64,000 bases of DNA, from positions 31,186,973 to 31,250,972 of the forward strand of contig NC_089273.1 in assembly GCF_963678975.1 (NCBI RefSeq), written 5' to 3'. The translations under genes and the position numbers were made by a program. Shown one piece after another: positions 400 to 61,545 of this stretch. Positions within the stretch are counted from its first letter, which is position 1. Each line of letters starts with the position of its first letter. This DNA comes from Dysidea avara (Eukaryota > Porifera > Demospongiae > Dictyoceratida > Dysideidae). The notes beneath the pieces were generated by a model. That model worked only from the letters and a program-made list of their open reading frames with translations. It did not search any database and was not told the origin of the DNA.

Positions 400-830
400 G
401 ACATATGTGTCTATTAGGATGACTGTTCTATTTTAGTATCTTGATCTCGCACATGCTACACCAAGTTGGATTTTGTGTTATCACTCTGTAGCTTTAAGTC
501 TGATTCTTGCAGACTATTGAAGAACCTTTCTAGGGTCATTAATCCATCTATAGAGCAATTTTAAAATCATTTCACTGAGATGCTTGTCTGGAAGATGTGG
601 CAAGTATTTGTTTTTTTGTTTTGTTTTTCGTTGTTATTTTAATTAGCTAATCTCAATCGCATAATTGTTACACACTGTTGGTTGTTTCGCTGTATCTTCA
701 TGGTCATTAGCTTGATTTCTTTCAAACTACTCACAAAATGGTTTGAGGTTCAATAGTTAACTTATCCACGTACCAATTTTCAGCTTCTTCCCATAAGCGA
801 TTTACCCTGTAGGTCAACCGTTTTTCAAAC
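400..830 (-). repeat. Fragment of the composite repeat (body only)
   Basis: This stretch matches, with many substitutions, the body of the composite element seen at 3835-4170. Shared landmarks in the same order are a TCTATT-TAGTATC-TTGATCTCGCAC block, a GTTACACACTGTTGGTT block and CGATTTACCCTGTAGG. It lies in the same orientation as the 2.9-4.6 kb copy and lacks both the tandem array and the palindrome. It is an old truncated copy; no coding potential seen. Confidence 0.65.
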
Positions 831-2914: not shown

Positions 2915-3245
2915 ATCTAATCCAAAACCACCAAGCTGTAAAAAAAGAGTGCGGCCCTGAAAAAGGCTATGGTGAAAAAAGATGTGAAATCCAAGGTGGC
3001 GGCCAAGAAATGGCTGTGATGGTAGGTTAATGGTAAAAATTTTAATAACAACAATTCAGGTGAATTTGGTGCCACTCGGTCTTGGCACAAAATTCACCTG
3101 AATTTTCGTTATTAAAATTTTTACCATTAACCTACCATCACAGCCATTTCTTGGCCGCCACCTTGGATTTCACATCTTTTTTCGTCATAGCCTTTTTCAG
3201 GGCCGCACTCTTTTTTATAGCTTGGCTGTTTTGGAATAGATTTCA
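2915..3245. repeat. Long palindrome of composite repeat, copy B
   Basis: Two arms of about 150 bases are near-perfect inverted copies around a loop at about 3060-3090 (GGTGCCACTCGGTCTTGGCAC). Landmarks of the left arm are AAGAGTGCGGCCCTGA, CCAAGGTGGCGGCC and GGTTAATGGTAAAAATTTT; the right arm has their complements. The same palindrome recurs at 61205-61540 (very similar) and 23195-23560 (diverged), each time at the end of a tandem array. The hydrophobic 74-codon frame across the right arm is a by-product. Confidence 0.9.
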
Positions 3246-3261
3246 CTTCTTTTTTTATTTA

Positions 3262-3303
3262 TATACCCCAAAGCTGGCCTATGGCCAGCTTTGGGGCTTT
3301 TTT
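3262..3303. repeat. Short hairpin with T-run at palindrome/array junction
   Basis: CCCCAAAGCTGGCC and GGCCAGCTTTGGGG form a 14-base-pair stem followed by a T-run. An equivalent hairpin (AGCTGGCCATAGGCCGG) lies at about 61166-61190 next to the third palindrome. It looks like a bacterial terminator, but it belongs to the repeat family and the DNA is eukaryotic. Confidence 0.75.
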
Positions 3304-3424
3304 TAACCTATCTTTTTTTTCTTTTTTACAGGAAGAAGAAAAGATGAAACAGGTGAATACTTTAAATATTTCTGATTTTATCAATAAATGTACAAATATA
3401 TATATAATGCATATATTTATTACA

Positions 3425-3835
3425 GAACTCTACATGGTGGTTTCTTTGTAACTGAACACTCCACAAGGTGAGTCCTTCTAGCTGATCTCTCTACAGGGTG
3501 AATTGTTTGTAACTGAACTCTCTACAAGGTAACTTCTTCTAGCTTATGTCTCTATAGGGTCACTAGTTAGTAGCTGAACTCTCTACAAGGTGACTTCTTC
3601 TAGCTGACCTTTCTACAGGGTAATTTGTTTGTAGCTGAACTCTCTACAGGTGGTTTCTTTGTAGCTGAACTCCCTACAAGGTGACTTCTTCTAGGTGAAC
3701 TACATAGTTGAACTCCCTACAAGGTAGCTTCTTCTAGATGATCTCTCTACAGGGTGAATTGTTTGTAGCTTATCTCTATACAGGTTACTAGTTTCTAGCT
3801 GATCTGTTGAATTCTTTTCAGGGTGACTGCTCTAT
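3425..3835 (-). repeat. Tandem array of about 30-bp units, copy B
   Basis: Roughly a dozen imperfect units run across this stretch. Read on the plus strand they are variants of CTCTACAAGGTGACTTCTTC plus TAGCTGAA; the complement matches the unit GTAGAGAGTTCAGCTA of the large array at 57.0-61.1 kb. The array lies between the palindrome (2915-3245) and the body (3835-4640), so this copy is inverted relative to the copies at 21.5 and 56.1 kb. Confidence 0.85.
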
Positions 3836-4640
3836 TAGAGTATCTCGATCTCGCACTTGCTACACCAAGTTTAGATTTTGTGTTATAACTCTGTGGTTTC
3901 AAGTCTGATTCTTCTACACCATTGAAGACCCTTTCTAAGATGATTACTCCATCTGTACAGCGAATTTCAAAGCATTACCCCAAGCGGTTTTTCTGGTGAG
4001 TATGGAAACTAGTTTTTTTTTTATTAGTTAATCTCGATTGCATAATTGTTACACACTGTTGGTTTTTTCGTTCTATCTTCCTGGTTTTTAGCTCGATTTC
4101 TTTCAAGCCACAAAAGGTTTGAGGTTCTATTCACCCACCGATTTTCAGGTTCTTCCTATACGCGATTTACCCTGTAGGCGTGACAACATATTGGTGTTAT
4201 TTTTCATGAATAATCACTAATAACTCTTTGCTTGTTTATCGTATTCCAGCCAACGTTGGTACCAAGATGCGCCTTTATACCCCCTTATGTGTGCCAAATT
4301 TCAAGGCAATCAGATATTGCATTCGCGTTTTATGGCGGTTTTTGTAAGTGTGCGAAAAGAGGAAGAAGAAAAAAAAAATAAGCCAATTTTTTAGAAGTCA
4401 CATATCTTGGGAACGCTTGAAGCGATTTCACTCAAATTTGGAATGTGGAGTACTGAAGTTGGAGGGAGTGTCCACAGCAAAAATCGTCTTGTTTCAACAA
4501 GGCAGCACAGAGCTACGGAGGTGCGAAAAGTGCATTTTCTTTCTTCCTGTCAATATACTCACGGGTGTTGCGCGCTGGCTTCTTGGGCCGCACGACACAC
4601 TACCGTGTGTCTTGATTATGAGATTTTCAGAAGCACAAAT
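3835..4640 (-). repeat. Body of composite repeat, copy B
   Basis: Unique-sequence part of the composite element. It includes CGATTTACCCTGTAGG, a block describing ATGCGCCTTTATACCCCC, GTGCGAAAAGAGGAAGAAG and an end with CTTCTTGGGCCGCACGACAC followed by ACACTACCGTGTGT. The same blocks, in reverse order and complement, form 56126-56930. The 107- and 92-codon frames at 4348-4685 lie within it, shift frame between copies and are not considered genes. Confidence 0.75.
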
Positions 4641-5583: not shown

Positions 5584-5681
5584 ACACCGAGTGAGAAACA
5601 TGCATATTATATACACATGATCTTCAATATACTAGTATTTTAATATCACACACAATAACAGCAGCTTTGTTAAAATCTTAC

Positions 5682-19500: not shown

Positions 19501-20066
19501 GAGAGATTCCAGATCTGGTAAGTTGCGTAGTTGTTCAGTGTATTTGCTTTGCACATTTGAGCAAACATCAGCATACACTATAGCACAAAAAATGCATATG
19601 TGATATAATCCATAAACCTTTATTACAGTATAGCAAGCCAAGAAAGTGACGTGCAGCCGAGAAAGCCAGATGGGTATATTGACAGGAAGAAAGAAATGGC
19701 ATTTTTTAAGCTTGCATATCCCCATGGCAAAGCAGCATGCATGAAATTTTTTGTATGGTGGACATTAAATAGAAGTATATTTGAGAATGATATTAAACAG
19801 AGCTAAATGTACTGTACTTCTAGATAAATTGTAAAGCAGTGAAAAGAGATTTACAGCTGGCACAATCAACTTCACCAATTTGGTACTTACATAAATGCTT
19901 TTATCTTTTATAAAGACGTTGATATGCCAAAATAACAAATACAAGAAGTTAGCAGTATGGACACTCTAGTACAATTACACCAATCTCCACATCTCAAGAC
20001 ATAGAAATTTAATAGCAACATATTTTACTTACATGCTTGATTACTTCTTGTTTCTGCTACTGCCAT
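5682..20066 (-). CDS. CARD-CARD-like-NB-ARC signalling ATPase (Apaf-1/NLR type), partial 3' end
   Basis: Eight minus-strand exons join in frame: 20066-20033, 19577-19275, 13949-13674, 9840-9766, 9708-9631, 9574-9473, 9421-9350 and 7526-5682. Together they give about 928 residues. Each boundary has AG/GT signals and every intron is phase 1. Residues about 12-112 and 113-204 are CARD/death-fold-like, 205-313 are a Ser/Pro/acidic linker, and 314-928 hold NB-ARC and a helical C-terminus. Family knowledge: such proteins sense a cue through the C-terminus, bind (d)ATP, oligomerise in the cytosol and recruit CARD partners such as caspases. The exon at 5682 ends in a good donor (GATG then GTAAGA), so more exons, perhaps a repeat sensor domain, lie at lower coordinates. 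The internal acceptors and matching phases make the model strong; extra exons in the long introns cannot be excluded. Confidence 0.8.
7892..8157. mobile_element. Foldback element with 9-bp target duplication
   Basis: Inverted arms of about 45 bases: left CCCAGACCCCACCCACTGCA, right its complement ending GGTGGGGTCTGGG. CCCTAGTCT occurs directly on both sides (7892-7900 and 8149-8157), apart from four extra bases (CGTG) on the left. A 9-bp duplication and long arms suggest a Mutator-type origin. The interior contains ATGGCGGCGGGCCC and no coding frame. It lies just upstream of the NB-ARC exon, inside the intron. Confidence 0.65.
8179..8293. repeat. Foldback hairpin element
   Basis: Arms GGTATCTTCGCTATTTTA...CGGAATGGCACATAATCAC and its complement surround a short centre, CTCGGGCTTCACCCTC. 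The centre resembles that of the hairpin at 29023-29175 (CTCGGCTTCACCTC), so the two may be distant members of one class. Confidence 0.7.
8449..8570 (-). repeat. Dispersed repeat R1, terminal fragment
   Basis: The blocks CCGAATCTGCAAGAGTCCCA, TTCTCGCAAGC and ATGGGTGGAGTATTTACGAA are the inverted counterpart of 15640-15755, the right end of the R1 element. It is an isolated end fragment inside the gene's intron. Confidence 0.55.
9350..9421 (-). CDS. Exon 7: Pro/His-rich linker
   Basis: 72 bases, phase 1 to phase 1, acceptor GTTGTTTCAG and donor ATTT|GTAAGT. Encodes PYRPQRSDPHPLPSHPLPMK, a proline-rich spacer directly ahead of the NB-ARC exon. It splices in frame to SFKYLPPPS at 7526. Confidence 0.65.
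9473..9574 (-). CDS. Exon 6: linker
   Basis: 102 bases, phase 1 to phase 1, acceptor TTGTATGTAG and donor AAAC|GTGAGT. Encodes HGHERKDTDSVSTVPFETQ and then GILNEQNKDK. The SSVSTVF of exon 4 and DSVSTVPF here are similar, which suggests the linker exons arose by exon duplication. Confidence 0.65.
9631..9708 (-). CDS. Exon 5: linker
   Basis: 78 bases, phase 1 to phase 1. Acceptor AACCATAG, donor AATG|GTACTG, the only donor here that keeps frame in the model, although it is weak. Encodes VEVFQPVSDIVSINGTEADP, an acidic linker with one NGT glycosylation-type sequon that would be irrelevant in the cytosol. The weak donor makes this the least certain exon of the gene. Confidence 0.5.
9766..9840 (-). 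CDS. Exon 4: linker
   Basis: 75 bases, phase 1 to phase 1, acceptor TTGTTGTTAG and donor ACTG|GTGAGT. Encodes PEENRSSVSTVF followed by SQEVDNEQQC. Low-complexity Ser/acidic text with no domain; joins the second CARD-like domain to the NB-ARC part. Confidence 0.65.
10984..11186. mobile_element. Short Tc1/mariner-type MITE
   Basis: Terminal inverted repeats of about 28 bases start TACAGTAAGTACTTGATTAT on the left and, complemented, TACAGTGGGTTCTCCATTAT on the right, both followed by CCARACAC. The element begins and ends with TA, the target site of Tc1/mariner transposases. About 200 bases, non-coding. Confidence 0.75.
11402..12054. mobile_element. MITE, TGTGRCC family member
   Basis: Left end TGTGGCCATCTCAGCAAAAA then CCCGTCCAGTTCGCA; the right end is the complement of TGTGTCCATCTCAGCGAAAA with the same following block. 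About 38-base inverted repeats. The interior includes an R1-like block (GCGCTAGACAGTAGG, GATTTGTACAGTGA). No transposase frame. Confidence 0.75.
12214..12853. mobile_element. MITE, TGTGRCC/R1 family member
   Basis: Left end ATCCGGATCTGCGAAAAAGG followed by GACATAATCG; right end, complemented, TGACCAGATCTGCAAAAACA then GGACATAATTGC. The interior carries the R1 block in reverse orientation (12640-12740). The 91- and 95-codon frames within it are repeat read-through. Confidence 0.7.
12860..13673. other. Intron, nothing else recognised
   Basis: AT-rich intronic DNA between MITE 12214-12853 and exon 3 of the NB-ARC gene. A tandem TCTAGGATGTTCATG pair lies at about 13120-13150. No exon-like stretch with paired splice sites found. 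Confidence 0.4.
13674..13949 (-). CDS. Exon 3: second CARD/death-fold-like domain
   Basis: The exon is 276 bases, phase 1 on both sides, with acceptor CATCTCAG and donor TCAT|GTGAGT. The translation (HLQTIEDLMPVD, KLYDCFTDSQVG, ANQLIIKYLTV, VKDLLTLCTQLKKIS) shows about six amphipathic helices and the LMPV...L.D.FT pattern of a CARD-like fold. A DED or death-domain assignment is possible; sequence alone does not decide. Its phase-1 symmetry means it can be inserted or skipped without disturbing frame. Confidence 0.65.
13950..15170. other. Intron, nothing clear
   Basis: Intronic DNA of the NB-ARC gene. Some blocks (around 14680-14830, GTTACAGCGCTTTGTGC and TTAGGGTTAAAA) resemble parts of the R1 elements and suggest further degraded MITE sequence. 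No gene supported. Confidence 0.35.
15176..15755 (+). mobile_element. R1 element (MITE), most complete copy
   Basis: Starts with TTTGCAAGAACCCCACAT and ends with ATATGGGATTCTTGCAGATC, which are approximate inverted repeats. It contains the block also seen at 1010-1365 with perhaps three-quarters identity by eye. The 76-codon frame at 15545 is within it and is not conserved in the other copies. Non-autonomous; intronic. Confidence 0.55.
16206..17612 (+). pseudogene. Decayed Ty3/gypsy retrotransposon pol (RNase H end to integrase)
   Basis: Ordered fragments of a gypsy-type polyprotein. The RNase H end KIHHVPGKTLYTADTLSR is at 16300-16355. An integrase zinc region follows (HEGHQGIQ, then CPTCQKT near 16770), then a core piece with DLFGP, then LLVVDYYSQF and the segment GIPAEMIS next to NGPQ, then YYPQANGLAERAVRTVK at 17020-17075. 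Damage is clear: a frameshift and stop after 16692, a TGA where Pro-Trp-Glu is usual near 16845, deletion between the NGPQ and YYPQ blocks, and Val in place of the second catalytic Asp. It is in the opposite orientation to the host gene, within the intron between exons 2 and 3. It is not functional. Confidence 0.85.
17603..17716 (+). mobile_element. Putative polypurine tract and LTR start of the gypsy remnant
   Basis: Immediately after the last pol-frame stop, CAGGGGGAGA is followed by TGTTGTATAGACTG. A purine run directly ahead of a TG start is the usual junction at the left edge of a 3' LTR. I could not find the matching 5' LTR, and the right edge is a guess at the CACACA near 17716. Confidence 0.4.
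18350..18525 (+). repeat. tRNA-derived SINE-like copy, family S1
   Basis: GGTTGCAGGTTCGAGGCTACC (18462-18482) has the form of a tRNA/Pol III B box, preceded by ACTCCTGTAAGCGTTCGAGT. The same extended block, from TTCCTATGGATA through GACAAGGAGAAAG to CCTAGGTCCAGT, recurs at 33440-33575. It is a dispersed copy rather than a tRNA gene, as no cloverleaf can be folded. A short related piece (GCAGAAAAAATCCAGACC) is at 21237-21260. Confidence 0.5.
18700..18930 (+). repeat. Dispersed repeat, pair with 31400-31590
   Basis: Blocks CTGTGGCCAAGTGAGTGCC, AGGAGGACACAGG, GCATGCATCGTA, GGCAACTGTCGGGCT and AGTCCCTATCCTTAGC are found as the complement, in reverse order, at 31400-31590. The first block resembles a Pol III A box, so a SINE is possible. 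Located in the intron between exons 2 and 3. Confidence 0.55.
19275..19577 (-). CDS. Exon 2: first CARD-like domain
   Basis: The exon is 303 bases (2+300+1, phase 1 at both ends), with acceptor GTGCTATAG and donor CAAG|GTACTG. The text has the spacing and hydrophobic pattern of a CARD: LPDLESLLPHFEERNIIT, then a Ser/Thr-rich turn before RMKMLLDNISLPLQ, then RFDSMLEIFTDHGADE. CARDs are six-helix modules that recruit caspases or adaptor CARDs. The longer open frame starting at 19725 is intron read-through that includes a fragment of the composite repeat. Confidence 0.75.
19610..19705 (+). repeat. Fragment of composite repeat body
   Basis: GTATATTGACAGGAAGAAAG and nearby GCAAGCCAAGAAAGTGACGT match the start of the composite element at 56150-56210. 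It lies in intron 1 of the CARD/NB-ARC gene and creates the false N-terminal extension of the exon 2 open frame. Confidence 0.55.
20033..20066 (-). CDS. Exon 1 of CARD/NB-ARC gene (start codon)
   Basis: ATG at 20066 opens MAVAETRSNQA and the exon ends after one base of the next codon at a consensus GTAAGT donor (20032). The phase-1 end matches the phase-1 start of the CARD exon at 19577, which begins LYADVCSNV after the join. Upstream (20067 onward) there are stops and no competing start in frame nearby. A short first exon ahead of a death-fold exon is common for this kind of protein. Confidence 0.65.
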
Positions 20067-20089: not shown

Positions 20090-21530
20090 AGTGCCACATA
20101 AAATGTAAGTTAATGGATACAGTACACTGCACAACAGTAACACAGCGGCAAATGTTAACTACAAAACTACCACTGGCCGGTTCACTAAGAAATATAAAAG
20201 TGACTAATCCTTGTCCTAAGGACTTCTAGCTGTCATACTAATTATTAAATCAAGTTTGGCTAGGATTATACCAGAGAGTTTCAACTAGCTACAGCACAAG
20301 AATTGTCTTGCTACATTAAGATACACAACAGGGACACACACTGTTTTTAGGTCAGCAGGGAAGTGTGCTGATTTAAACAAGCTACCAGAAATTGAGTGTA
20401 GAAGATTCCGATTCGTGATGATATTGATGATAAAGTAGTAATGTAAGAAACAGTGGTAAGAAACAGTGGTAAAATGTTTCAGTTGTGATAGCCTTGGTGG
20501 TTGTATTACTGTGGAAAAACTGACAATAGACATCAGGCATAATTATAATGCCAGTTGAATCTTGAATAGGTAAATACACCAGTGCTAAGTTTGTGTGAAA
20601 TAAATGTCACAGGCTTCCCTAAATAGTGGTAGAAAAGTGGAGCACTGCTCTACTTTACTCAAAATTCCTTTGATGTAGTAAAAAGAATGTACATAATTAA
20701 TGAATGCTTTGATATTGGTAGCAAATTGACAGTATTACCACTCTACCTTATTTTGCTGACACTGTAGCTGCACTAATAGCAGGATGAACTCTAAAGCTTT
20801 ATCAGTCTTATATTAGAATTGGGTGGCACACTGGTACGTATCATAGGAGAAGTTACCTTTGCCGTACTGGAGGAATTTAGAAAATATCGATATACCATCT
20901 AGAGTTAGATTCCTTCCTTTACCAGTGTGAAATATAACCCTCTAATTGTATTAGAGTCAGTTTATAGCATGTTTTATCAACTGTCTATCACACTTTCCAA
21001 AAAAAAGTTCATTTGATATATAATTATATTTAAAAATACAATCCATACCATGGTATGTATTTGCACTGTGATATACTTTTCTATAGTACCATACCAGCTT
21101 TGACAAATCTCATACCACTGTTACATTTAGATATCATCTGTCTATCTGTCTGTGAATGCTATCCCACTAGGAACCTGTGAGAAGGTTAAAGCCTGTGAAT
21201 ACAGGGAGTCAGAAACATGTAACTAAAACGTTGAAGAATGCAGAAAAAATCCAGACCCAGTGGTGATGTACATGTTACCTGCATGTAGTAGAGATATCAA
21301 ACACTTGTGCAGTTTTTGTCTGGAAGGCACTATAGATATCAGGCTCACAAATGCCACCATTAGGTCCTTTCTCTTTTTGTAACAATTACTTTTCACTGGT
21401 ACGATTGCATGTGTTACATTATCAATGTTGATTTCACAGTAGCGTGATTGACACAGCTTTCTGTGAGGGTTTCTATATCTTATAGACCCTTGTAGTGAGG
21501 GATTGTTTACATTGTACGTATCAACACATA
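20090..21530. other. Intergenic, no gene recognised
   Basis: Upstream flank of the CARD/NB-ARC gene; its promoter presumably lies in the first few hundred bases, but I see no decisive TATA or initiator signal. There is a 20-base tandem duplication of GTAAGAAACAGTG at 20450-20475. No coding exons. Confidence 0.4.
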
Positions 21531-21534
21531 TGGT

Positions 21535-22265
21535 AGTGTAATGCGGCCAAGAAACCAGAGCATCACATCAGGGTATTGTTGACAGGAAGAACAATAATAT
21601 AGTTTTCACTGTGCTTCCTTTATGATGCAAGACAAGCTTTCTATGGAAATTCTCTCAATAGTCTACATACAAATTTTAGCAAAATCAATTAAAAACATCA
21701 CCAAGATATGAGTCTTTAAAAAATTGGCTTAATTTCTTTGGTTTCTTTTTCCTTTCTTTCTTGTTTTTCTTTGTCTTTTGTGTACTTACGTACAAAAACT
21801 GCCAAAAAATGCAAACACACAATCTGATTGCATGACATTTGGCACACATAAGAAGAGTTGAAAAGCAACTTTGGTACCGATTTGTGCTTGAATACAACAA
21901 ACAGTTACTGAGTTATTAACGATTACTCGCGAAAACTAATACCAATATGTTGTCATGCATATAGGGTAAACTGGTTATGGGAAGAAGCTGAAAATTGGTA
22001 CATGGATAGATTGGCTATAATGAACCTCAAACCTTGTGTGGCTTGGTAGAATTCACATTACAGACCATGAATATGTAGCACAAAAACAAACAATATGTAA
22101 CAATCATGCAATTGAGTTTTGGCAACAAAAAAGTGATTGCTTACCACACCTACCAGGCAAACCGCTTAATGGGATGAGCTATAAACTGGTGTACAGGTAG
22201 GTTAATCATCATAAAAGGATATTCACAAATTAAGATTTTTTAAAAATAAAACAATCAACTACGTG
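21535..22265 (+). repeat. Body of composite repeat, copy C
   Basis: Begins with ATGCGGCCAAGAAACCAG, followed by TTGACAGGAAGAA. It continues with the T/C-rich TTTCTTTTTCCTTTCTTTCT block, GCATGACATTTGGCACACAT, ATAGGGTAAACTGG and CTACCAGGCAAACCGCTTA. The order matches 56126-56930. Diverged relative to copy D. Confidence 0.75.
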
Positions 22266-22269
22266 TAGC

Positions 22270-23185
22270 AAGTGCTCGATTGAGATACTCTAATAGTGCA
22301 GTCACCCTAACAGAGCAGTTAACAAAGCCACTCTATTACAGTGTCAGCTGTGAAACAAAGTCACCACATAAAGAGTTCAACTATGTTACAAATCACCTGT
22401 AGAGACTTCAGCTATGATACATGTTGTCCTGTAAAGAGTTTCGTTACAGTACAAGTCACCTAATAGAGACAACAAATCAGGAGTTCAGCTACCTTCAAAG
22501 TCACATTGTAGAGAGTTCAGCTAAAAGAATGTCATCCTGCAGCTACACCCTGTAGTTACCAAATTAGCAAGTCACTCTGTAGAGAGTCCAGCTACATTAC
22601 AAGTTGCCCCTGTAGAAAGTTCAGCTGAAAGATAAGCCACCCTGTAAAGTTCAGCTATACATTACAAGCCACCCTGTGAAATATTCAGTTATGGTACAAG
22701 TCATCCTATAGAAATCTCAACTACAAAAAAAATCATCCTTTGGAGAGTTCAGCTACTGTATTTCAAGTCACCTGTAGAGAGTTCAGCTACAAACAAGTTA
22801 CACTATAGTCCTGTAGAGATGTTACAAGTCATCCTGTAGATAAAGAGTTCAAATTACAAGAACGTCATCCTGTGGAAATTTCAAATTACAAGAAAGTCAC
22901 CCTGTGGAGAGTTCACCAAGTCACACAAAGTTCAGTTACATAACAAATTTCTGTGTAGAGAGTTTGACTAGGCTATAAGTCACTTGTAGAAGTTTAAGTT
23001 TGGTTACAAGCCACCCTAGCTACAAGACAAATCACACTATAGAACAAGTCAGAGTTCAGCTCTGTAGAATGTTACAAGTCACTCTGTAGAGAGTTTAGCT
23101 ATGCCACAAGTCACCTTTAGGGAGTTCAGCTACAAACAAATCACGTTCAATAATATTACAAATCACACTGTAGAAAGTTCAGTTA
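22270..23185 (+). repeat. Tandem array of about 30-bp units, copy C
   Basis: Some 25-30 degenerate units of the form GTAGAGAGTTCAGCTA plus CAAGTCACCCT. Many units are shortened or mutated, so this is an older array than the one at 57.0-61.1 kb. A few remnant units also appear at 24110-24170. Confidence 0.85.
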
Positions 23186-23189
23186 GCCT

Positions 23190-23560
23190 ATACAATCAAT
23201 TACAAAAAGAAGTGATATCTATACCAAAACAGAGAAGCTATAAAAAGTATAGAGCCTTCCAAAAAGCTATAGTGAAAAAAAATTTGATTTTCAAAGGTGG
23301 CAGCTAAAATGTCTGTGATAGTAGGTTAACGGTAAAAATGTAATACCGATAATTCAGGTGAATTCAGTGCCAAATCCTAGGACATGACACAACACAACTG
23401 AAATGTTACTAACTTTTTTACCATTAACCTACCATCACAGCCATTTCTTAGCCACCACCTTGGATTTCACATCTTTTTTCACCCAGGCTTTTTGGATGGC
23501 AGCACACCTTTTTTCATAGCTTAGCTGCTTTCATATAGATTCTCAACAGTGACAAGGATT
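23190..23560. repeat. Long palindrome of composite repeat, copy C (diverged)
   Basis: Left arm with AAAAAGCTATAGTGAAAAAA, AAAGGTGGCAGC and TAGGTTAACGGTAAAAATG; right arm with ACCATTAACCTACCATCACA, CCACCACCTTGGATTTCACA and CTTTTTTCATAGCTTAGC. It is clearly homologous to the palindromes at 2915 and 61205, but the arms have diverged from one another. Confidence 0.8.
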
Positions 23561-28421: not shown

Positions 28422-28432
28422 GAGAATATATT

Positions 28433-40100: not shown

Positions 40101-43100
40101 TTTTCTTCATTTCTGAAGTTGTACAGTATAGGTAAATAAATAAAATAAAATAATTGAAATTCCCTAAGTACCGTTCCATTCCACCATTCCATTCCATTCC
40201 ACCATTCCAGTCCATTCCACCATTCCAGTCCATTCCACCATTCCATTCCACTGAATCCAGACGCCCGATATTTAAGCCATACCAGTTTTGATACCGCCTG
40301 TTTTTTTTTAATACCGCCATAACATCTGGGCACTATGGGTTTGTTCATCCCATGTTTAGAAGGTAACCAGACATGTGACAATGTTTGTAGGCAGGTGGTG
40401 ATGTAGTCAGCTAACCAAACTATGTAAACAAGTTTGTTTGTGGTAATTTGTACCTGAGGTTTGCTGAGCTACCATGGGTATTTGGTGCTTTTGTTGATGT
40501 AAATGGCAGTTACTTTAATACCAATGGCTTTAACATTAATACTGTGATGTTTAGTAATACCGTAATACTTTTTTATTCTGTCTCTCTTTTGTGAGAAGTA
40601 GTATCATCGTACTTATCGTCTAACACCACGTTCACACTAGCCCAGTAGCACGGTTCAAAACGGTACGGCTCGACAAAAAGTGCAATGTGAACACCATCCG
40701 TACCGGGCCCAACTGAACCGAGCCAGCCCACCCGATTGAACCAGGCCAGCACGGTACGGTACAATTATCACTCACCAGGCGCACAAAATAATTATTTTAT
40801 AAACTCAACATGCAATGAAGAAGGGCTCAGGAACACTGTTCGACATGAGGTTCAGCACAAAAGAAACCCTAACGACAGTTATGAACTATTTGTCGTCGTG
40901 GCAGTTACTGTTTCACTCACTTCGATTCGCGGCATGATTTCTGCAGTCACAGTTTCAGCTACATGGCCACCTATCTAGTTGAAATGAAAGAATACCAGCA
41001 CAAGAGGCTTGAAGGGCAAGAGCTGCATCCAGTTTTAGTAAGTAAACTAAATAATATTTAATTGTGCGCTTATGGAAACCAGATGACTTAGCGAGCGAGA
41101 CTGCATAGTGTGAACAGAGGCAATACTGGGCCGTACCGAACCGAGTCGAACTGAACCGTGCTACCGTGCTAATGTGAATGCAGTGTTAGAAGCAGCAAAA
41201 ATTCTTTCAAACACAGACTTGCCTTGTATTATGCCCAGTTATGTTACAATGCTTGGATAAAGCTTAGGGTAATACCCATTAACCACAAAGTAGCGTGGTT
41301 TAAACCATATATTTGTAGGATATTTCGTTCATGAGATATATGCGTTTGAACACATACATGTAATCAGAGCCACTATAATAGCGTTTGCTTTTAATGGAAC
41401 ACTTTTTTTATTAACTTTGGGGTCAAAGGGCTAAACTTTGGTTCATTATTAATACTTTTCAGTGACTGTTTTGTTCAATTAAAAGCAATCAGTAACTGTT
41501 CTATTAGAGTACCTTGATCTTCACTGACACATCTTTTTGAAATTCTAAAGAAGGCACAGAATCATGCACATGCATCTTAGTTCAATAATATTTTGTGCAT
41601 TTATGTAATATGTGACCCAGTCAGGGAAAAAGGTCTTATTGTCCATGTCAGCAGATTCAATCTTTCACCAAGAACACAAAGCTACATGAATAAACTATCT
41701 AATTTCCCAATCAAAATCAGCTAGACTTGAGTGGTCTGGTTTTGCTGGCTGCTTTTTCCAAGCCCAGTGGCAATCCGTATGTGTGGTGTGGGACATTAAT
41801 GGAGTTATGGTTAGCCTGAACGTAGCTCCATGGTGTTGAATAAAGACCTGTGCTGTAGATTTTCTTTCATTTAAGCCAGTTTTGATATTTGAATGGCCCA
41901 TAATCTTTTCAATTTTATAAACAGCCCCTTTCCCTCCTTCCAGGCCCTGCCTCCCTCCCCTTTTGGAGCTCACCTGATACAGACAACCTCAGTTTAAAAA
42001 CTATCTAAAATAGTGGGAAACTTAGCTGCTGGCTACTTGAACAGCAGATGCTTTGGAAGGTAAGGAATTGGTATAAAACGCATGAAAATTGGTTCAACCA
42101 TTGGCAAGCTACAACACACAAAATACTTAAAACTGGAATTTCTCGATACTTTAAAAAAGGCAATAAGCCCTTTTCCCAGACTGGGTCACACACTTGTTTT
42201 CAATTTTGTACAAGTGCATTTTGCTCCTTCTGTCTTCCTATTATTCCAGAAACAAAATTGACACATTCCTATTTCCAAGCTGCTAAAGGCTGTCTTAAGA
42301 GTTTCATATCCTTCTGCCTCATTTCAATTCCATTACTAATTAACAAGAGTATAATATGGGGGCACACCTTCATAACTCCTGTAGTTACATAGCCAGTTAA
42401 TTATGTAATTTTTATGATCAGGGTTGAAAGCAGGTCAGATTATCCAGGTCACATTTTGTCAGCAATTATCTGCTTTATAAGGAACACTTGTGGTTTATAA
42501 ATTAATAAGATCATTTGCACTGATGGAAATGGAGTAAGTAAAATTCTAGAATATGGAAATGGAAAGCAGGAACGGGAACAACCAACAGAAAAAAAACTGG
42601 TAAAGGTCATCATGCTAATGTAAAGGTTAGATTTTATAACAAATGCTTCTTTGCAGTATTGTTGGATCCTTCCACTAAAACAATCGAAATACAGTGGAAC
42701 CTCCATTATACCCAACCTAATTAGGGGGAAGGGAGTTCATATATAATCAAATAGTATGTAAATTTGAACATCCATACATTTATATACAGAGCTTTGCTTA
42801 ATTACTCTAATAAAGCATACACTTGTTGACAAAATAGCCTAATTGAACAGTCAATTTGGTGTTCGGATAATTGAGTGTTCGGTTAAATGGGGATAATCAA
42901 GGTTTCACTGTACTTTAATAGATCAATCACCTGCAGTAAACCACTCTAATAGAGCAGTCAAAATGTTTAGCTATGCCGCTGAAATCTATTTAAAAGGCCA
43001 AAGCTATTGACACCAATTGTCGGTGTCAATAAGCTCCATCTAAAGCTATTGACACCGACCAAGGGCTACACAAAATCCATGGTTGCTGAAAAATGGCTAG

Positions 43101-49600: not shown

Positions 49601-49610
49601 CATGTACATA

Positions 49611-49861
49611 TGTGACTGGGCCTGCGAAAACAGGGCATGTGGGCACAAACTACACCCCATCACTCTACAGGTCATATCTCAGTACTGGAACAGAATATTT
49701 GCATTCTGTAACCTGCATCATAACGCCAATTAAATGCTTACTAATAGCTAAACATTGCATTGCCATAGCATAATGGTACAAAAAGTTATGAGTGATGAAA
49801 GTTTGAAAAAGTAGGCAAAAATCATGTGCCCACATGCCCTATTTTCGCAGGCCCAGTCACA
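49611..49861 (-). mobile_element. MITE, TGTGRCC family, copy 2
   Basis: Inverted relative to 28433-28683, with the same ends (TGTGACTGGGCCTGCGAAAA and complement) and the same interior (GTTTGAAAAAGTAGGCAAAA). The two copies appear roughly 85-90% identical by eye, so this family moved fairly recently. Confidence 0.85.
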
Positions 49862-49869
49862 TATTAGGG

Positions 49870-52797: not shown

Positions 52798-53152
52798 AGG
52801 GCCACCCACAGGGGAGGGGGGGAGGGAAACTGAGGTATTTTTCCCCGAGCCCCAGCCTGAAAGGGGCCCCAGGATACCGGCCCCTTGAATACCTCCTTAA
52901 AAGATCGATATACTCTAATAGAGCAGTCACAGTATTCTTCAGAGTAGCAGTGTAGCAGGCGTATAAATAAGGAGATATGGTTGGTGAGGCTGGGGTAGAT
53001 ATTGTCATAGTCAGTATGTAATGACCTTTTTTTTTTGGTCTTCGTCTTACAGCTTGGGTGAAGTTATATAATTCAAAATGCAAGCCTCCTTGCCCCTGGG
53101 GCCCCACTTTAACTCTTTGCCCTGGGCCCCTTAATTTCTCTGGGCGGCCCTG
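52798..53152. mobile_element. hAT-like MITE with AGGGCC ends
   Basis: Left end AGGGCCACCCACAGGGGAGG; right end, complemented, CAGGGCCGCCCAGAGAAATT. G/C-rich arms (GAGCCCCAGCC, GGGCCCC) enclose a non-coding centre with one CTCTAATAGAGCAGTCA motif. It starts about 210 bases after the Parkin stop. The 130-codon minus frame here reads the arms and is rejected as a gene. Confidence 0.65.
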
Positions 53153-54915: not shown

Positions 54916-55803
54916 CAGGGGCGGATCTAGGATTTATAAATGGGGGGGGGGCTAACTCAAGGTACTAATCTCTTGGGTAGAGGTGTGCAAAGCACATTTC
55001 CCAGCATGCAAAGCATGCTGGAACTAGAGGCGTCTGGGGGCATGCCCCCCCCAGGAAAATTTTGAAAAATAGATGCTAAAATACTGCAATTTGGAGACAT
55101 TTCCACATAAAATTCATAATATTTTCTGCCTGTAGATATTTTATATACTGCCTTTAGATTATAGGTATGGCTCTCTGACTGAAGTATTTTGCTAATGGAA
55201 AAGTTTGGGTAGGTACAGGCAACCAAGTACATGATGCACCCCTCTCACAATTGCACAACACTGAATAGGTGCATGTTAGAATAATAATATGTTGAAAGTG
55301 GAAAATTTTGAAATTTGAACGATACAAGATTGAATCTGAGAGCATTTTCAATGGAAATTGTGTACCTGGATTAAGTATTGTCATACATATTAACTACGTA
55401 CACAAGTAGATGAATGAAGCCCTTTAAACAGACCAATGCACTTCATTGTATGTATAGGTGCAGGCAGATTTGGAAAAATTCCATAACAGAACCAACTACA
55501 TGTTTCCAGTGAATGTTCTATTAGAGTAGTTAGCTGACTGCTCTATTAGAGTATCTCGATCTTGTACACCTCCAATGCTGATCCGGGTCCTTGTTGCATA
55601 AACTTTAGCATAAATCCACTGGTAATACCTTGGAAAAATGTTTATAAGGTAGTTTTATGAGTATTTGTATTATTAGTGATCATATAATTATGCTAAGACA
55701 AAATTTCAGTTATAATACTCAGCATATTGATCAAGTAAAGCCTAAATATGAAGGGTGGGGGGCTTCAGCCCCCAAATCCCCCCCCCCCCTGGATCCGCCC
55801 CTG
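54916..55803. mobile_element. hAT-like MITE with CAGGGGCGGATC ends
   Basis: Left end CAGGGGCGGATCTAGGATTT, right end CCCTGGATCCGCCCCTG; G-runs (GGGGGGGG) and C-runs lie just inside. ATTGG flanks both ends directly (54911-54915 and 55804-55808), possibly part of an older 8-bp duplication. The interior has two adjacent CTATTAGAGTA motifs at 55510-55560. Confidence 0.8.
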
Positions 55804-56125
55804 ATTGGGGCTTTTTTATTGTGGCAGTTTGCTAAACAAAAATTATTTCAAAATTCTTTATAGAAACCCCTCTTTCGAATGGGGACATAGTGGGGTTTTG
55901 ACGTTCAAGCTTCTTAGCCCCAGTACTGGGAAATTTTCCAAATCCCCACTCTGGGTTGGGCATGACATTGATAGGTGCATTAAAATTGCCATGGTATTAA
56001 ATTATTAAATACGTATACAGCTATAGCCATGCATGGCCAGCTAATTTCTACACTCATACGGCAGTACAATACTTCCAATTGCATCCTTTAGGTGAAAATA
56101 ATATCATGAACCTGGCTAGCGATCA

Positions 56126-56930
56126 AGACACACGATAGTGTGTCGTGCGGCCCAAGAAGCCGGCGCGCCACACCGTGAGTATATTAACAGGAAGAAAGAA
56201 AACGCAATTTTCACACCTATGTAGCTCTGTGATCCCTTATCCGATTGGAACCAAAATTGCTAGAGACGTGCCGCCCAGTTAGGGGAGTCTACATACCAAA
56301 TTTGGAGAAAATCGCTCCAGCCATTTCCGAGATACGAGCGAACAAAATTTCGTTTTAATTTCTTCGTTTTTTTCTTCTTCTTCTTCTTCTTCTTCTTCTT
56401 CTTCTTCTTCATCTTCTTCATTTCGCACACTTCGCAAAATTCGCCATAAAACACGAATGCGTGCTCGGATCGGGCTGAAATTTGGCACACTTAAAGGGCT
56501 CATTAAGGAGGATCTCCGTATCAACTTTGGTAGGAATCCGATGAACATTCACGGAGTTATGACCGATTATTTGCGTAAAATAAGGTCGAAGGTCTGTCAC
56601 GCCTACAGGGTAAACCCCTTGGAGGAATCAGTTGAAAATTGATATGTAGATGGAGCAACCATCGTAGGAGTGCCTTTTTGTGGTTTGAAAGGAATCGGGA
56701 TAAAGACCATGGAGATATGACACAAAACCCAACCTGTGTCAAAATTACGCGATCGATTTTTATGAATAAAAAACTATTAGTTTTCGTGTCTACCAGGCAA
56801 ACCGCTTAGACCAACGAGCTGAAAATCAGTATGTAGCTTAAATAATCATCATAGAAAGTCCTTGCAGTAGTACAGAAGAATCGGATTACAAATCACAGAG
56901 TTATGGTTCGAAAGGCAACTACGTGCAGCA
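56126..56930 (+). repeat. Body of composite repeat, copy D
   Basis: Starts with AAGACACACGATAGTGTGTC then GTGCGGCCCAAGAAGC. It contains GTATATTAACAGGAAGAAAG, a block with AATCGCTCCAGCCATTTCCG, a (TTC)n run at 56375-56412, TTCGCCATAAAACACGAATG, CTACAGGGTAAACCCC and CTACCAGGCAAACCGCTTA. It ends with GAGATCGAGATACTCTAATA, where the tandem array begins. Same order as copies B (inverted) and C. Poly-Glu/Lys frames on the minus strand come from the TTC run. Confidence 0.85.
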
Positions 56931-56994
56931 AATGCGAGATCGAGATACTCTAATAGAACAGTCACCCTAATAAATCATTCAGCTGCATTTATAA

Positions 56995-59900
56995 TTTACT
57001 CAGTAATATTACATTGCAAGTTATTCTGTAGAGGATTCAGCTACAAACAAGTCACCCTGTAGTCAGATCAGCTAGAAGAAGATACCTTATAGATTGTTCA
57101 GCTACAAAGAAGCCATCATATAGAGAGTTCAGCTCAAATAAATCACCCTGTAGAGAATTCAGCTACAAACAAATTACCCTATAGAGAGATTAGCTAGAAG
57201 GAGTTACCTTGTAGAGACTTCAGTTACAAAGAAACAATCATGCAAAGAGTTTAGCTGCAAACAAATCACCCAGTAGAAAGTTCCGCTATGAACAGATCAC
57301 ACTGTAGAGAGTTCAGTTAGAAACAAGTCATCTTGTAGATAGATCAGCTAGAAGAAGTCACTTTGTAGAGAGTTCAGCTACAAAGAAACCACCATGTAAG
57401 AGAGTTCAGCTGCAAACAAATCACCCTGTAGAGAGTTCAGCTAGGAACAAGTCACCCTGTACAGAGATCAGCTAGAAACAAGTCATCCTGTAGAGAGTTC
57501 AGCTAGAAGAAATTACATTGTAGAAAGTTCAGCTACAAAGAAACTACCATGTAGAGAGTTCAGCTACAAACAAATCACCCTGTAGAAAGATCAGCTAGAA
57601 GAAGTTACCTTGTAGAGACTTCAGCTACAAATAAGTCACCCTGTAGAGAGTTCAGCTAGAAACAAGTCATTATGTAGAGAGATCAGCTAGAAACAAGCCA
57701 CCCGTAGAGAGTTCAGCTAGAAGAAATTACATTGTAGAGAGTTCAGCTACAAACAAATCACCCTGTAGAGAGTTCAGCTAGAAACAAGTCACCCGTAGAG
57801 AGATCAGCTAGAAACAAGTCATCCTGTAGAGAGTTCAGCTAGAAGAAATTACATTGTAGAAAGTTCAGCTACAAAGAAACTACCATGTAGAGAGTTCAGC
57901 TGCAAACAAATCGCCCTGTAGAGAATTCAGCTACAAACAAATTACCCTGTAGAAAGATCAGCTAAAAGAAGTTACCTTGTAGAGAGTTCAGCTACAAATA
58001 AATCACCCTGTAGAGACTTCAGCTAGAAACAAGTCACCCTGTAGAGAGATCAGCTAGAAACAGGCCACCAGTAGAGAGTCCAGCTAGAAGAAGTTACATT
58101 GTAGAGAGTTCAGCTACAAAGAAACTACCATGTAGAGAGTTCAGCTACAAACAAATCGCCCTGTAGAGAATTCAGCTACAAACAAATCACCCTGTAGAAA
58201 GATCAGCTAGAAGAAGTTACCTTGTAGAGACTTCAGCTACAAAAAAGTCACCCTGTAGAGAGTTCAGCTAGAAACAAGTCATTATGTAGAGAGATCAGCT
58301 AGAAACAAGCCACCCGTAGAGAGTTCAGCTAGAAGAAATTACATTGTAGAGAGTTCAGCTACAAAGAAACTACCATGTAGAGAGTTCAGCTGCAAACAAA
58401 TTGCCCTGTAGAGAATTCAGCTACAAAAAAATTACCCTGTAGAAAGATCAGCTAGAAGAAGTTACCTTGTAGAGAGTTCAGCTACAAATAAATCACCCTG
58501 TAGAGACTTCAGCTAGAAACAAGTCACCCTGTAGAGAGATCAGCTAGAAACAAGCCACCCGTAGAGAGTTCAGCTAGAAGAAGTTACATTGTAGAGAGTT
58601 CAGCTACAAAGAAACTACCATGTAGAGAGTTCAGCTGCAAACAAATTGCCCTGTAGAGAATTTAGCTACACACAAATCACCCTGTAGAAAGATCAGCTAG
58701 AAGAAGTTACCTTGTAGAGAGTTCAGCTAGAAACAAGTCCCCCTGTAGAGAGATCAGCTAGAAACAGGCCACCCGTAGAGAGTCCAGCTAGAAGAAGTTA
58801 CATTGTAGAGAGTTCAGCTACAAAGAAACTACCATGTAGAGAATTCAGCTACAAACAAACCACCCTGTAGAGAATTCAGCTACAAACAAATCACCCTGTA
58901 GAAAGATCAGCTAGAAGAAGTTACCTTGTAGAGACTTCAGCTACAAATAAGCCACCCTGTAGAGAGTTCAGCTAGAAACAAGCCACCCATAGAGAGTTCA
59001 GCTAGAAGAAATTACCTTGTAGAGAGTTCAACTACAAACAAATCACCCTGTAGAGAGTTCAGCTACAAGCAAGTCACCTTGTAGAGAGTTCAGCTAGAAG
59101 AAGTTACATTGTAGAGAGTTCAGCTACAAAGAAACTACCATGTAGAGAGTTCAGCTGCAAACAAATTGCCCTGTAGAGAATTCAGCTACAAACAAATCAC
59201 CCTGTAGAAAGGTCAGCTAGAAGAAGTTACCTTGTAGAGAGTTCAGCTACAAACAAATCACCCTGTAGAGAGTTCAGCTAGAAACAAGTTACCCGTAGAG
59301 AGATCAGCTAGAAACAAGTCATCCTGTAGAGAGTTCAGCTAGAAGAAGTTACATTGTAGAGAGTTCAGCTACAAAGAAACTACCATGTAGAGAGTTCAGC
59401 TTCAAACAAATTGCCCTGTAGAGAATTCAGCTACAAACAATCACCCTGTAGAAAGATTAGCTAGAAGAAGTTACCTTGTAGAGAGTTCAGCTACAAACAA
59501 ATCACCCTGTAGAGAGTTCAGCTACAAACAAGTCACCCTGTAGAGAATTCAGCTAAAAACAAGCCACCCGTAGAGAGTTCAGCTAGAAGAAGTTACATTG
59601 TAGAGAGTTCAGCTACAAAGAAACTACCATGTAGAGAATTCAGCTACAAACAAATCACCCTATAGAAAGATCAGCTAGAAGAAGTTACCTTGTAGAGAGT
59701 TCAGCTACAAATAAATCACCCTCTAGAGAGTTCAGCTACAAACAAGTCATCCGGTAGAGAGATCAGCTAAAAGGATCACCTTGCAGAGAGGTCAGCTACA
59801 AAGAAATCACCATGTAGAGAGTGTAGCTGCAAAGAAATCACCCTGTAGAAAATTCAGCCACAAACAAATTGCCCTGTAGAAAGATCATTTAGAAGAAGTT

Positions 59901-61110
59901 ACCTTGTGGAGAGTTCAGCTACAGAGAAACCATTCTGTAAAGAGCTCAGCTGCAAACAAATCACCTGTACAGAATTCAGCTACAAACAAATCACCCTGTA
60001 CAGAGATCAGCTAGAAGAAGTCACCTTGTAGATCGTTCAGCTACAAACAAATCACCCTGTAGAGAGATCAGCTAGAAGAAGTCACCTTGTAGAGAGTTTA
60101 GCTACAAAAAAACCACCATGTAGAGAGTTCAGCTGCAAAGAAATCACCCTGTAGAAAATTCAGCCACAAACAAATTTCCCTGTAGAAAGTTCAGTTAGAA
60201 GAAGTTACCTTGTAGAGAGTTCAGCTACAAAGTAACCATTCTGTAAAGAGCTCAGCTGCAAACAAATCACCTGTACAGAATTCAGCTACAAACAAATCAC
60301 CCTGTAGAAAGATCAGCTAGAAGAAGTTACCTTGTAGACAGTTCAGCTACAAACAAGTTACCCTGTAGAGAGTTCAGCTAGAAGAAGTTACATTGTAGAG
60401 AGTTCAGCTACAAAGAAACTACCTTGTAGAGAGTTCAGCTTCAAACAAATTGCCCTGTAGAGAATTCAGCTACAAACAAATCACCCTGTAGAAAGATCAG
60501 CTAGAAGAAGTTACCTTGTAGAGAGTTCAGCTACAAACAAGTCACCCTGTAGAGAGTTCAGCTAGAAACAAGTCACCCTGTAGAGAGATCAGCTAGAAAC
60601 AAGTCACCATGTAGAGAGTTCAGCTAGAAGAAGTTACATTGTAGAGAGTTTAGCTACAAAGAAACTACCATGTAGAGAGTTCAGCTTCAAACAAATTGCC
60701 CTGTAGAGAATTCAGCTACAAACAAATCACCCTGTAGAAAGATCAGTTAGAAGAAGTTACCTTGTAGAGAATTCAGCTACAAACAAATCACCCTGTAGAG
60801 AGTTCAGCTACAAACAAGTCACCCTGTAGAGAGATTAACTAGAAACAAGCCACCCGTAGAGAGTTCAGCTAGAAGAAGTTACATTGTAGAGAGTTCAGCA
60901 GTTTAGCTGCAAACAAATCGCCCAGTAGAGAATTCAGCTACAAACAAATCACCCTGTAGAAAGATCAGCTAGAAGAAGTTACCTTGTCGAGAGTTCAGCT
61001 ACAAACAAATCACCGTGTAGAGAGTTCAGCTACAAACAAGTCATCCGGTAGAGAGATCAGCTAGAAGGATCACCTTGCAGAGAGGTCAGCTACAAAGAAA
61101 TCACCCTGCT
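56995..61110 (+). repeat. Large tandem array of 30-31-bp units with higher-order period
   Basis: Roughly 130 units, each beginning GTAGAGAGTTCAGCTA (or GTAGAAAGATCAGCTA) and ending in a small set of variants: GAAGAAGTTACATT, CAAAGAAACTACCAT, CAAACAAATTGCCCT, CAAACAAATCACCCT, GAAGAAGTTACCTT or GAAACAAGTCACCCT. The variants follow a repeating order. The ACATT unit recurs near 58095, 58341, 58585, 59105, 59350 and 59595, that is about every 245 bases or eight units, with occasional shortened or lengthened blocks. No coding frame. It forms the middle of composite repeat copy D. Confidence 0.95.
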
Positions 61111-61159
61111 TCATCTTTTCTTCTTCCTGTAGTAAAGAAATAAATGATAGGTTAAAAAG

Positions 61160-61545
61160 CCCTAAAGCTGGCCATAGGCCGGTTTTGGGGTATACAAATA
61201 CAAAAAGAAGTGAAATCTAATCCAAAACAGCCAAGCTGTAAAAAAAGAGTGCGGCCCTGAGAAAGGCTATGGTGAAAAAAGATGTGAAATCCAAGGTGGC
61301 GGCCAAGAAATGGCTGTGATGGTAGGTTAATGGTAAAAATTTTAATAATGACAATTCAGGTGAATTTTGTGCGGCACCAAATTCACCTGAATTGTTGTTA
61401 TTAAAATTTTTACCATTAACCTACCATCACAGCCATTTCTTGGCCGCCACCTTGGATTTCACATCTTTTTTCACCATAGCCTTTCTCAGGGCCGCACTCT
61501 TTTTTTACAGCTTGGCTGTTTTGGATTAGATTAAATTTACATGAA
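61160..61545. repeat. Long palindrome of composite repeat, copy D
   Basis: Arms of about 155 bases on each side of a short loop near 61365-61375 (TTTTGTGCGGCACCAAA) are almost perfect inverted copies. The left arm has AAGAGTGCGGCCCTGAGAAA, CCAAGGTGGCGGCC and GGTTAATGGTAAAAATTTT. It is nearly identical to the palindrome at 2915-3245. The hairpin AGCTGGCCATAGGCCGG precedes it. It ends about 225 bases before the parkin start codon. Confidence 0.9.

Follow-up and report, generated by a model that had tools for sequence, protein, structure and literature searches.

A probable Helitron-like, non-autonomous transposon of Dysidea avara with a tandem array and a long terminal palindrome

The three copies found in the window (i.e., the whole stretch of 64,000 nucleotides that was analysed) form one mobile family. 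This family is probably a non-autonomous Helitron-like rolling-circle transposon, nearest to Helitron2/HINE, whose palindrome would be kept near perfect by arm recopying. Its modules follow a fixed order, i.e., 5' end, body, tandem array, short hairpin, palindrome and 3' end. The original prediction had described this order in three parts for the three window copies; it is confirmed, with exact limits now given by the junctions (Table 1). Modules occurring independently and never in this order had been named as the opposite outcome: the order is kept in 14 of the 14 copies traced end to end (the three window copies, L039-L043, L032, L012+L044, L015+L045, L022+L046, L020+L047 and L098+L078). 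That prediction had not recognised that the element inserts between A and T, that its 5' end is TC with a hairpin, or that the palindrome tip occurs in two orientations.

Table 1. Features of the family in the window (positions are those of the window; a slash marks a junction between element and host)
Feature	Position	Strand	Description
Copy 1, complete element	56123..61530	+	5408 bp; junctions A/TC...TTAGA/T; twin L039
Copy 1, conserved 5' end	56123..56202	+	TCAA and hairpin GACACAC-GATA-GTGTGTC, then GTGCGGCCC
Copy 1, body	56123..56990	+	(TTC)n microsatellite inside, 56360-56419
Copy 1, tandem array	57026..61108	+	30/31-bp unit, 4.08 kb; L039 array equally long
Copy 1, pre-palindrome module	61109..61215	+	short hairpin, GGCC-ATA-GGCC core; 89.6% to copy 2
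Copy 1, terminal palindrome	61216..61530	+	315 bp, "flip", short-loop type; TCTAATCC...GGATTAGA/T
Copy 2, complete element	2916..4615	-	1700 bp, other subfamily; AT-rich spacer separates array from pre-palindrome module
Copy 3, complete but old	21521..23539	+	2019 bp; arms 72% complementary; without pre-palindrome hairpin
Body fragment	412..813	-	64% match over 403 bp
Short 5'-body fragment, weak match	19671..19706	+	86% over 36 bp

The body of copy 1 contains no open frame of at least 130 aa in the ORF listing. It aligns (56120-56990) to 4616-3808 (69%) and to parts of 21900-22310, and the palindrome of copy 1 aligns to 3254-2888 (92%) and to 23202-23531 (76%). Between copies 1 and 2, identity is 94.9% for the first 80 bp and 95.4% for the 3' module vs. 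70.0% for the body, i.e., the element ends are conserved while the interior drifts. The likeness of the palindromes, previously read as a mark of young ends, is thus no sign of youth. In the array of copy 1, higher periods of 92 and 245 are superimposed on the basic unit; the array of copy 3 is degenerate (the tandem-repeat finder reports just 22826-22915). A palindrome with an adjacent hairpin had been announced for every full copy, and this stands for copies 1 and 2; copy 3 lacks the hairpin. Likewise, one of the two proposed body-only fragments is retained and the other is reduced to a short match (Table 1). The motif GAGATACTCTAATAGA(A/G)CAGTCAC, found at the body end, is repeated at several other window positions; it seems to be a dispersed repeat in its own right.

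In the 550.8-Mb genome, pattern counts find 14,024 5' termini, or about one every 39 kb; palindrome-arm ends number 22,691, and the reversed-pattern controls give 0. Copy 1 and its twin L039, on another contig, are 99.98% identical over 5408 bp; copy 1 is therefore young, and the whole unit, array included, moved recently. Copy 1 and L040 are 99.91% identical and differ in addition by one array block of 428 bp; L012 and L015 are 99.86% identical, with array blocks of 551 and 183 bp. Array length thus changes in blocks of many units. The largest arrays among the copies read reach 5.2 kb. Pattern searches for relatives in viral-contig and genome-contig collections returned 0 exact matches. For the NB-ARC protein, identity to relatives reaches 72% among the at least 120 matches listed.

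The family ends are TCAAGACACAC (5') and TTAGA (3'). The 5' terminus is TC directly followed by a hairpin (exception: L033, reading TT); the hairpin GACACAC-loop-GTGTGTC is present in 11 of 11 copies compared and is decayed in window copy 3. The flanks are uniform: all 37 distinct 5' flanks have an A before the TC, and T directly follows TTAGA in 48 of 48 3' flanks (45 of host sequence and three of element sequence, i.e., the first module of L008, L014 and L067). The 48 flanks prefer T-TAA-WW-TTAC. A resemblance of this flank to TAATATTAC, a motif at the replication origin of small circular DNA viruses, was given no weight; the two middle positions of the flank are split about evenly (TA 13 and AT 12 of 48). 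Once joined, the flanks of L032 run unbroken through copies of a host repeat (8 places over 1-260, at least 87%). Among the four host-repeat copies aligned, L090 is an intact empty site, CAAGAGAAA/TTATATTAAC; L092 has a single substitution next to the junction, and L089 and L091 are short of three bases there. Insertion takes place between a host A and a host T without target duplication; a 2-bp AT duplication would give identical junctions. Defined ends, an empty site, near-identical copies at unrelated loci and the block-wise differences in array length give good support to the predicted mobile, non-autonomous, satellite-carrying element.

When the first 60 bases are compared with the last 60, the longest inverted match is the 9-bp GTGCGGCCC. 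It is subterminal, at +23 and 33-34 nt from the 3' end, and is present in 10 of 11 copies (L042 has 7 bp); 24 of 2000 mononucleotide shuffles reach this length. Beyond it, no inverted repeats join the two element ends. The 3' end reads TTAGA/T and not CTRR. The palindrome of canonical Helitrons (16-20 nt, some 11 nt short of the 3' end) is absent, and a palindrome of 313-328 nt that extends to the very end is found instead. The TT/T-rich insertion preference of Helitron2/Helentron is replaced by A/T. Other features of that group are present: a hairpin at both termini, central tandem repeats and a microsatellite.

The comparison with known systems, as far as the sections of the papers compared go, leads to the following. 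(i) HINEs (PMC7492417; for mites and Drosophila, PMC4067079), among them Cg_HINE of the Pacific oyster, a non-autonomous Helentron of the HINE/DINE-1/pearl type (PMC7492417), share with the family a left flank with microsatellite, a central array in one orientation and a right flank with palindrome; they are also non-coding, dispersed and without target duplication. HINEs differ by insertion at TT; in mites the palindrome is 5-10 bp, near the end, and subTIRs of 11-15 bp lie 2-4 nt from the 5' end (PMC4067079), vs. the 9-bp match here. Unlike theirs, the family arrays, with a 30/31-bp unit, attain the multi-kilobase sizes given above. (ii) FoHeli1/2 of Fusarium, of Helitron2 type, have the TC start, the immediate hairpin, hairpins at both termini, an inverted repeat lying some 30-50 bp inside the 3' end and a non-CTRR terminus there; they encode Rep/helicase, end in ATTTT and prefer another site, and the sections compared make no mention of a long palindrome or an array (PMC5148889). 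(iii) Canonical Helitrons such as Helraiser share the 5' TC, the A/T insertion without duplication and the 3' hairpin terminator, but the Helraiser 3' end is CTAG with a 19-bp palindrome 11 nt before it (PMC4778049). The claim that the layout matched no described family is thus not upheld, since non-autonomous elements of Helentron/Helitron2 type share its plan (central tandem repeats, terminal hairpins). What is unusual is the TTAGA 3' end, the very long terminal palindrome (exceeding by more than tenfold the length of Helitron hairpins in the literature compared) and the co-evolving arms with a two-way tip. Among the titles and abstract openings listed from the open-licence literature, none described a Helitron-like element whose long terminal palindrome occurs in two orientations.

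The genome is rich in Helitron Rep domains (at least 150 matches, 150 candidates having been scored of 230). In a small sample of these loci, the proposed search for an autonomous relative sharing the ends found none: the family 5' end was seen in 0 of 8 stretches (3 kb upstream) and the 3' motif in 0 of 5 (2.5 kb past the Rep open frame). The oyster element is likewise without a relatable autonomous partner in the part of PMC7492417 compared. Body and array pieces lie near two sampled Rep genes (L087 and L093), by estimate about as many as the family density predicts.

The palindrome was compared in 48 elements (313-328 bp). The inverted arms are 98% complementary at 61214-61532 and 96% at 2941-3216. 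As a single strand, 61215-61530 folds at -191 kcal/mol vs. a mean of -35 for 100 shuffles (z -37). The palindrome starts with A/TCTAATCC and ends with GGATTAGA/T; because of this start, a TTAGA/T site is present on the opposite strand, i.e., both borders carry the same putative cut site. Tip and loop are found both ways (28 flip, 20 flop). The mismatches at columns 136-137 are mirrored between the two classes, though outside the motifs used for calling the state; among the 15 asymmetric inner columns, 138 and 146 are not cleanly mirrored and 144 is uninformative. The arms differ 78 times within the outer 130 columns and 169 times within the 30 columns that follow; the loop columns account for 156 differences. 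Two outer variants, 34 A>T in 13 elements and 45 G>C in 16, always affect both arms. Counted per element over the outer 125 columns, 31 left and 38 right departures are one-armed vs. 41 two-armed. The one-armed variants are mostly private (21 left, 24 right); the nine common to 2-4 elements occur at A-runs, at CpG sites or in scattered elements. They are read as mutation after insertion. The commonest heritable changes in the outer 125-130 columns are two-armed, while the inner 35-40 nt and the loop are asymmetric and present in both orientations. Arms evolving together and two tip orientations point to hairpin or cruciform intermediates. L050 and L077 have the same 3' host flank and opposite tip orientations. 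They were not retained as one shared insertion: upstream of the 3' module they have different sequences, which suggests two insertions at one host-repeat site.

A terminal palindrome in two tip orientations is also a property of parvovirus hairpins; that of the family differs in being one-sided and in an orientation inherited by lineage, and no viral gene was seen. In a parvovirus-like rolling hairpin, the palindrome would be the replication primer, folding back to prime the second strand, and a Rep nick at TTAGA/T of the opposite strand would resolve the terminus and so flip the tip. Such a mode would account for the same cut site on opposite strands at both borders, for the frequency of both states and for the heritable asymmetry gathered in the tip stem, as would follow from priming at the tip and renewed copying of the outer arm. 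It is nonetheless quite unlikely. The flip state needs 8 changes on the tree, compared with 15.6 on average after shuffling, and none of 500 shuffles gave so few (most branches are weakly supported), i.e., it appears inherited; flipping at each cycle predicts about half and half in young groups, and the 313-316-nt class has 12 flip and 1 flop; moreover the long palindrome is at one end only, the 5' end being a 7-bp stem. An ordinary Helitron, with flips and arm homogenisation due to template switching or gene conversion in the host chromosome and unrelated to transposition, is a possible, though doubtful, explanation. Long inverted repeats undergo such events, and the flips are occasional and passed on to later copies. 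It is less easily reconciled with the sharp step from a near-symmetric outer arm to an asymmetric tip, which is not obvious from random conversion tracts. Moreover copy 1, L002 and L003, twins at different loci, have identical tip states and fully symmetric outer arms, so the process would not be very fast in place. Such dynamics are compatible with the preferred explanation except for its final step.

Two further readings bear on the ends. It is very unlikely that the family is a foldback element or a cut-and-paste DNA transposon that duplicates a 2-bp AT target: AT does stand at both junctions (the L032 flanks overlap by two bases) and a long inverted repeat is present, but the palindrome is confined to one end and the terminal 60 bases share at most the subterminal 9 bp. 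That the palindrome is an independent MITE adjoining arrays by chance is extremely improbable. In L035 and L067 the pre-palindrome module flanks it on either side, which implies a longer palindromic unit, present or past. Against this, in 46 of the 48 palindromes either array (32) or spacer (14) lies before the 3' module (other, 2), three spacer-type loci extended upstream reveal body and array, and in the complete copies read the element terminates, on its 3' side, with the outer end of the palindrome.

Under the preferred rolling-circle reading, Rep/helicase from another element would nick at A/TC and strand displacement would proceed 5' to 3' across body and array; the palindrome would serve as terminator, and the strand would be cleaved after TTAGA. 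As passive cargo, the array would grow and shrink via slippage or unequal exchange. In the single-stranded or cruciform palindrome, the tip stem may snap back and let one outer arm be recopied from its partner, which would explain why the palindrome is near perfect; occasional resolution of the hairpin the other way round would invert the tip. A more specific form, i.e., a eukaryotic rolling-circle transposon with a hairpin-ended intermediate (tip snap-back, outer arm resynthesised, Rep cut at the mirrored TTAGA/T, tip sometimes flipped), is unlikely. If true, it would connect two kinds of HUH replication, the Helitron type and the parvovirus type, within a single family.

The element spreads satellite arrays genome-wide and is a natural experiment on satellites riding on, and growing inside, rolling-circle transposons. 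Its palindrome keeps its own history, in two-armed mutations and both tip orientations over the 48 copies. This record allows questions on Helitron-type 3' terminator processing and on the occurrence of hairpin-ended intermediates to be put to sequence only. Rfam gave 10 matches, all under the curated scores, 9 on the palindrome and one on the array; those on the palindrome are to miRNA, snoRNA and small-RNA models, types favouring long hairpins. A frame of about 23 codons with a terminal stop can be read by eye in the palindrome and is a candidate coding remnant.

The composite repeat is a real and very abundant mobile family, and the fixed three-part order that the original prediction proposed is borne out by all 14 copies covered end to end, whose modules are in the same order. 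In the window (G000:C2:31186973-31250972 of an assembly of 550.8 Mb and 108 contigs, eukaryotic judging from size and content), each copy starts with a 5' TC and hairpin; then come the body, the tandem array, (a spacer), the module with the short hairpin, the palindrome and the 3' end. Copy 3 is judged old because its palindrome arms are 72% complementary, the short hairpin is missing, the 5' hairpin is decayed and the array is degenerate.

Features of the window
Feature	Position	Strand
Element copy 1	56123-61530	+
Element copy 2	2916-4615	-
Element copy 3, old	21521-23539	+
GAGATACTCTAATAGA(A/G)CAGTCAC motif	22280-22309, 52905-52934, 55530-55559, 5353-5382, 56940-56969	
Open frame, 645 aa, NB-ARC domain	5632-7569	-
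GGAATG-type short tandem repeats, mutually inverted, ~1.7 kb apart	38392-38512 and 40170-40251	
Inverted repeat pair, 89%, ~21 kb apart	28430-28684 and 49610-49864	

The genome-wide search with palindrome and body returned many further loci (L numbers; C numbers are contigs). The best 40 of 230 palindrome candidates were scored (identity 93-100%), as were the best 40 of 3,699 body candidates. In 30/30 fetched body loci (L009-L038) the body is followed downstream by array units, at a distance of ~0.6 kb in L025. The 14 end-to-end copies are the three of the window, L039, L040, L041, L042, L043, L032, L012+L044, L015+L045, L022+L046, L020+L047 and L098+L078; those outside the window are best-scoring matches, so that old copies are under-represented. 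The body of L042 is interrupted by a ~0.9 kb insert and the array of L046 by a foreign one. The upstream extensions of L099 and L100 both contain body and array; the element 5' end lies beyond the fetched stretch in L099 and was not found in the extension of L100. Of the 89 exact 5' ends in the first 6.48 Mb of C1, 36 are followed within 8 kb by an exact 3' motif and 12 are preceded by one; the mean is 7.9 for random places (18 at most in 1000) and 24.0 with random strands (35 at most).

Allowing up to 2 mismatches, the genome contains 7,010 + 7,014 5' termini and 11,351 + 11,340 palindrome-arm ends (up to two per palindrome), the reversed-pattern control being 0 in both cases. Copy 1 and L039 (C6) are 99.98% identical across 5,408 bp, with arrays of the same length (4,083 bp). 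Leaving out one array block of 428 bp and 15 bp close to the microsatellite, copy 1 and L040 (C14) are 99.91% identical; L012 and L015 reach 99.86% without their two array blocks (551 and 183 bp), and L041 and L020 reach 95.4%, with 21 gaps of at least 10 bp. Since near-identical copies differ by such blocks, array length shifts blockwise (~6, 14 and 18 units) with very few point differences accumulating; the array can move intact as well. The conserved portion of the element is its ends, because copies 1 and 2 agree in the first 80 bp (94.9%) and in the 3' module (95.4%), and diverge in the body (70.0%).

In the proposed check of ends and target duplications, A precedes the 5' TC in 37/37 distinct flanks, and T follows the 3' TTAGA in 48/48, three of which (L008 first module, L014, L067) are element sequence and not host. 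The 3' flank preference is T-T-A-A-W-W-T-T-A-C. The host sequence around L032 is itself a repeat that has inverted ends. Among the best 40 of 2,537 candidates scored with its joined flanks, 8 places cover positions 1-260 at 87% or more. In an alignment of four of them, L090 is continuous across the junction, L092 carries a single substitution next to it, and three bases are missing at this point from L089 and L091. Insertion thus places the element between A and T, the joined flanks of this one empty site matching uninterrupted host-repeat copies (L090 intact); a 2-bp AT target duplication would predict the same sequence as A|T insertion without duplication. Some ends are irregular: (i) in L014 the TTAGA of one copy directly adjoins the TC of the next; (ii) in L037 a 77-bp 5' stub immediately precedes a full body; (iii) L008 has two consecutive 3' modules. 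Such ends are expected from circles or restarted copying, but from nested insertion too.

From 86 distinct arm-bounded sequences, most palindromes being present in both readings, 48 palindromes were retained in element orientation. L035, flanked on both sides by the short hairpin module, was left out; L067, which runs on into an inverted short hairpin module, is represented by one reading. Among the 48, the two arms disagree at 78 cells of the outer 130 columns and at 169 cells of the 30 columns that follow; the loop columns contribute 156. Within the outermost 125 columns, 41 changed cells affect both arms, 31 the left only and 38 the right only. The two-armed changes represent 10 different variants, of which four recur between elements: 34 A>T (13 elements) and 45 G>C (16 elements), never one-armed, 47 G>A (4 elements, one-armed once) and 89 G>C (2 elements). 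Private variants make up most of the one-armed changes (21 in the left arm, 24 in the right); nine others recur in 2-4 elements each and are located at A-runs, at CpG sites or in elements that are scattered.

Inner mismatches and loop sequence divide the palindromes into two mirror-image classes (flip, 28; flop, 20), called from tip motifs, so that the tip columns are mirrored by construction. Independently of these motifs, column 136 is mirrored (T/C in 15 flips, C/T in 4 flops, one exception), as is column 137 (G/A in 19 flips, A/G in 16 flops); mirroring is not clean at columns 138 and 146. Flips and flops number 12 and 1 among palindromes of 313-316 nt, 7 and 4 at 319-321 nt, and 9 and 15 at 325 nt or more. 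On a tree built from the upstream module and left arm, poorly supported overall (30/42 inner branches open), 8 changes of orientation are required, of which well supported branches force at least 3; shuffles need 15.6 on average, and 0/500 are as low as 8. Tip inversion has therefore occurred several times, yet orientation is inherited. L050 and L077, of opposite orientation, have a 3' host flank in common (91.7% identical over 120 bases) and apparently lie at the same site of a host repeat.

The family is most simply explained as a Helitron-type transposon that is moved in trans: it has the TC start, A|T target, lack of duplication, 3' hairpin and end-to-end copying of Helitrons. The hairpin right at the 5' end and a 3' end other than CTRR point rather towards the Helitron2 side, as does the subterminal inverted 9-mer GTGCGGCCC (at +23 and at 33 nt before the 3' end; length reached in 24/2,000 shuffles). 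The 3' hairpin of Helraiser is described as a termination signal in PMC4778049; by extension, the palindrome of >300 bp would be an extreme terminator. Since the two arms stay similar everywhere but around the tip, the sequences suggest that the tip stem pairs first and would prime recopying of the remaining palindrome, either during transposition or in the chromosome. We regard the family as a novel form of non-autonomous satellite-carrying Helitron-like element, in which the flipping, self-homogenising terminal palindrome merits further work.

Helitron_like_N has at least 150 matches in the genome (150 of 230 candidates scored) and matched 0/14 control genomes; matches lie in long open frames (e.g., at C4:21413385, C8:9720204, C13:5649197), which reach up to 2,798 codons. 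Against this number, the search for an autonomous relative with the same ends was negative in the stretches covered, i.e., 0/8 upstream (3 kb, L081-L088) and 0/5 downstream (2.5 kb, L093-L097). Inverted pieces of body and array occur in L087 and L093, about as often as we estimate from one copy per 39 kb. A DUF6570 domain is present in 2/4 upstream stretches tested (L086, L088).

The ~30-base motif GAGATACTCTAATAGA(A/G)CAGTCAC is the end of the body and is independently dispersed too; it also occurs in helicase flanks L081, L084 and L097 and within a GGGGCGGATCCAG-ended insert of L046. A second body and array (L046:4769-7112), 81% identical and inverted, lies ~400 bp beyond the palindrome of a complete copy. 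In a sister subfamily, a partial MITE-like repeat (with GTGACCGGATTTGCGAAAAG-type ends) lies between the array and the spacer (upstream of the palindrome in L054, L062, L063, L066, L074, L075, L078 and L079; also L098-L100), and the subfamily seems to have been amplified together with it. L069, of the same group, has a different sequence at that place.
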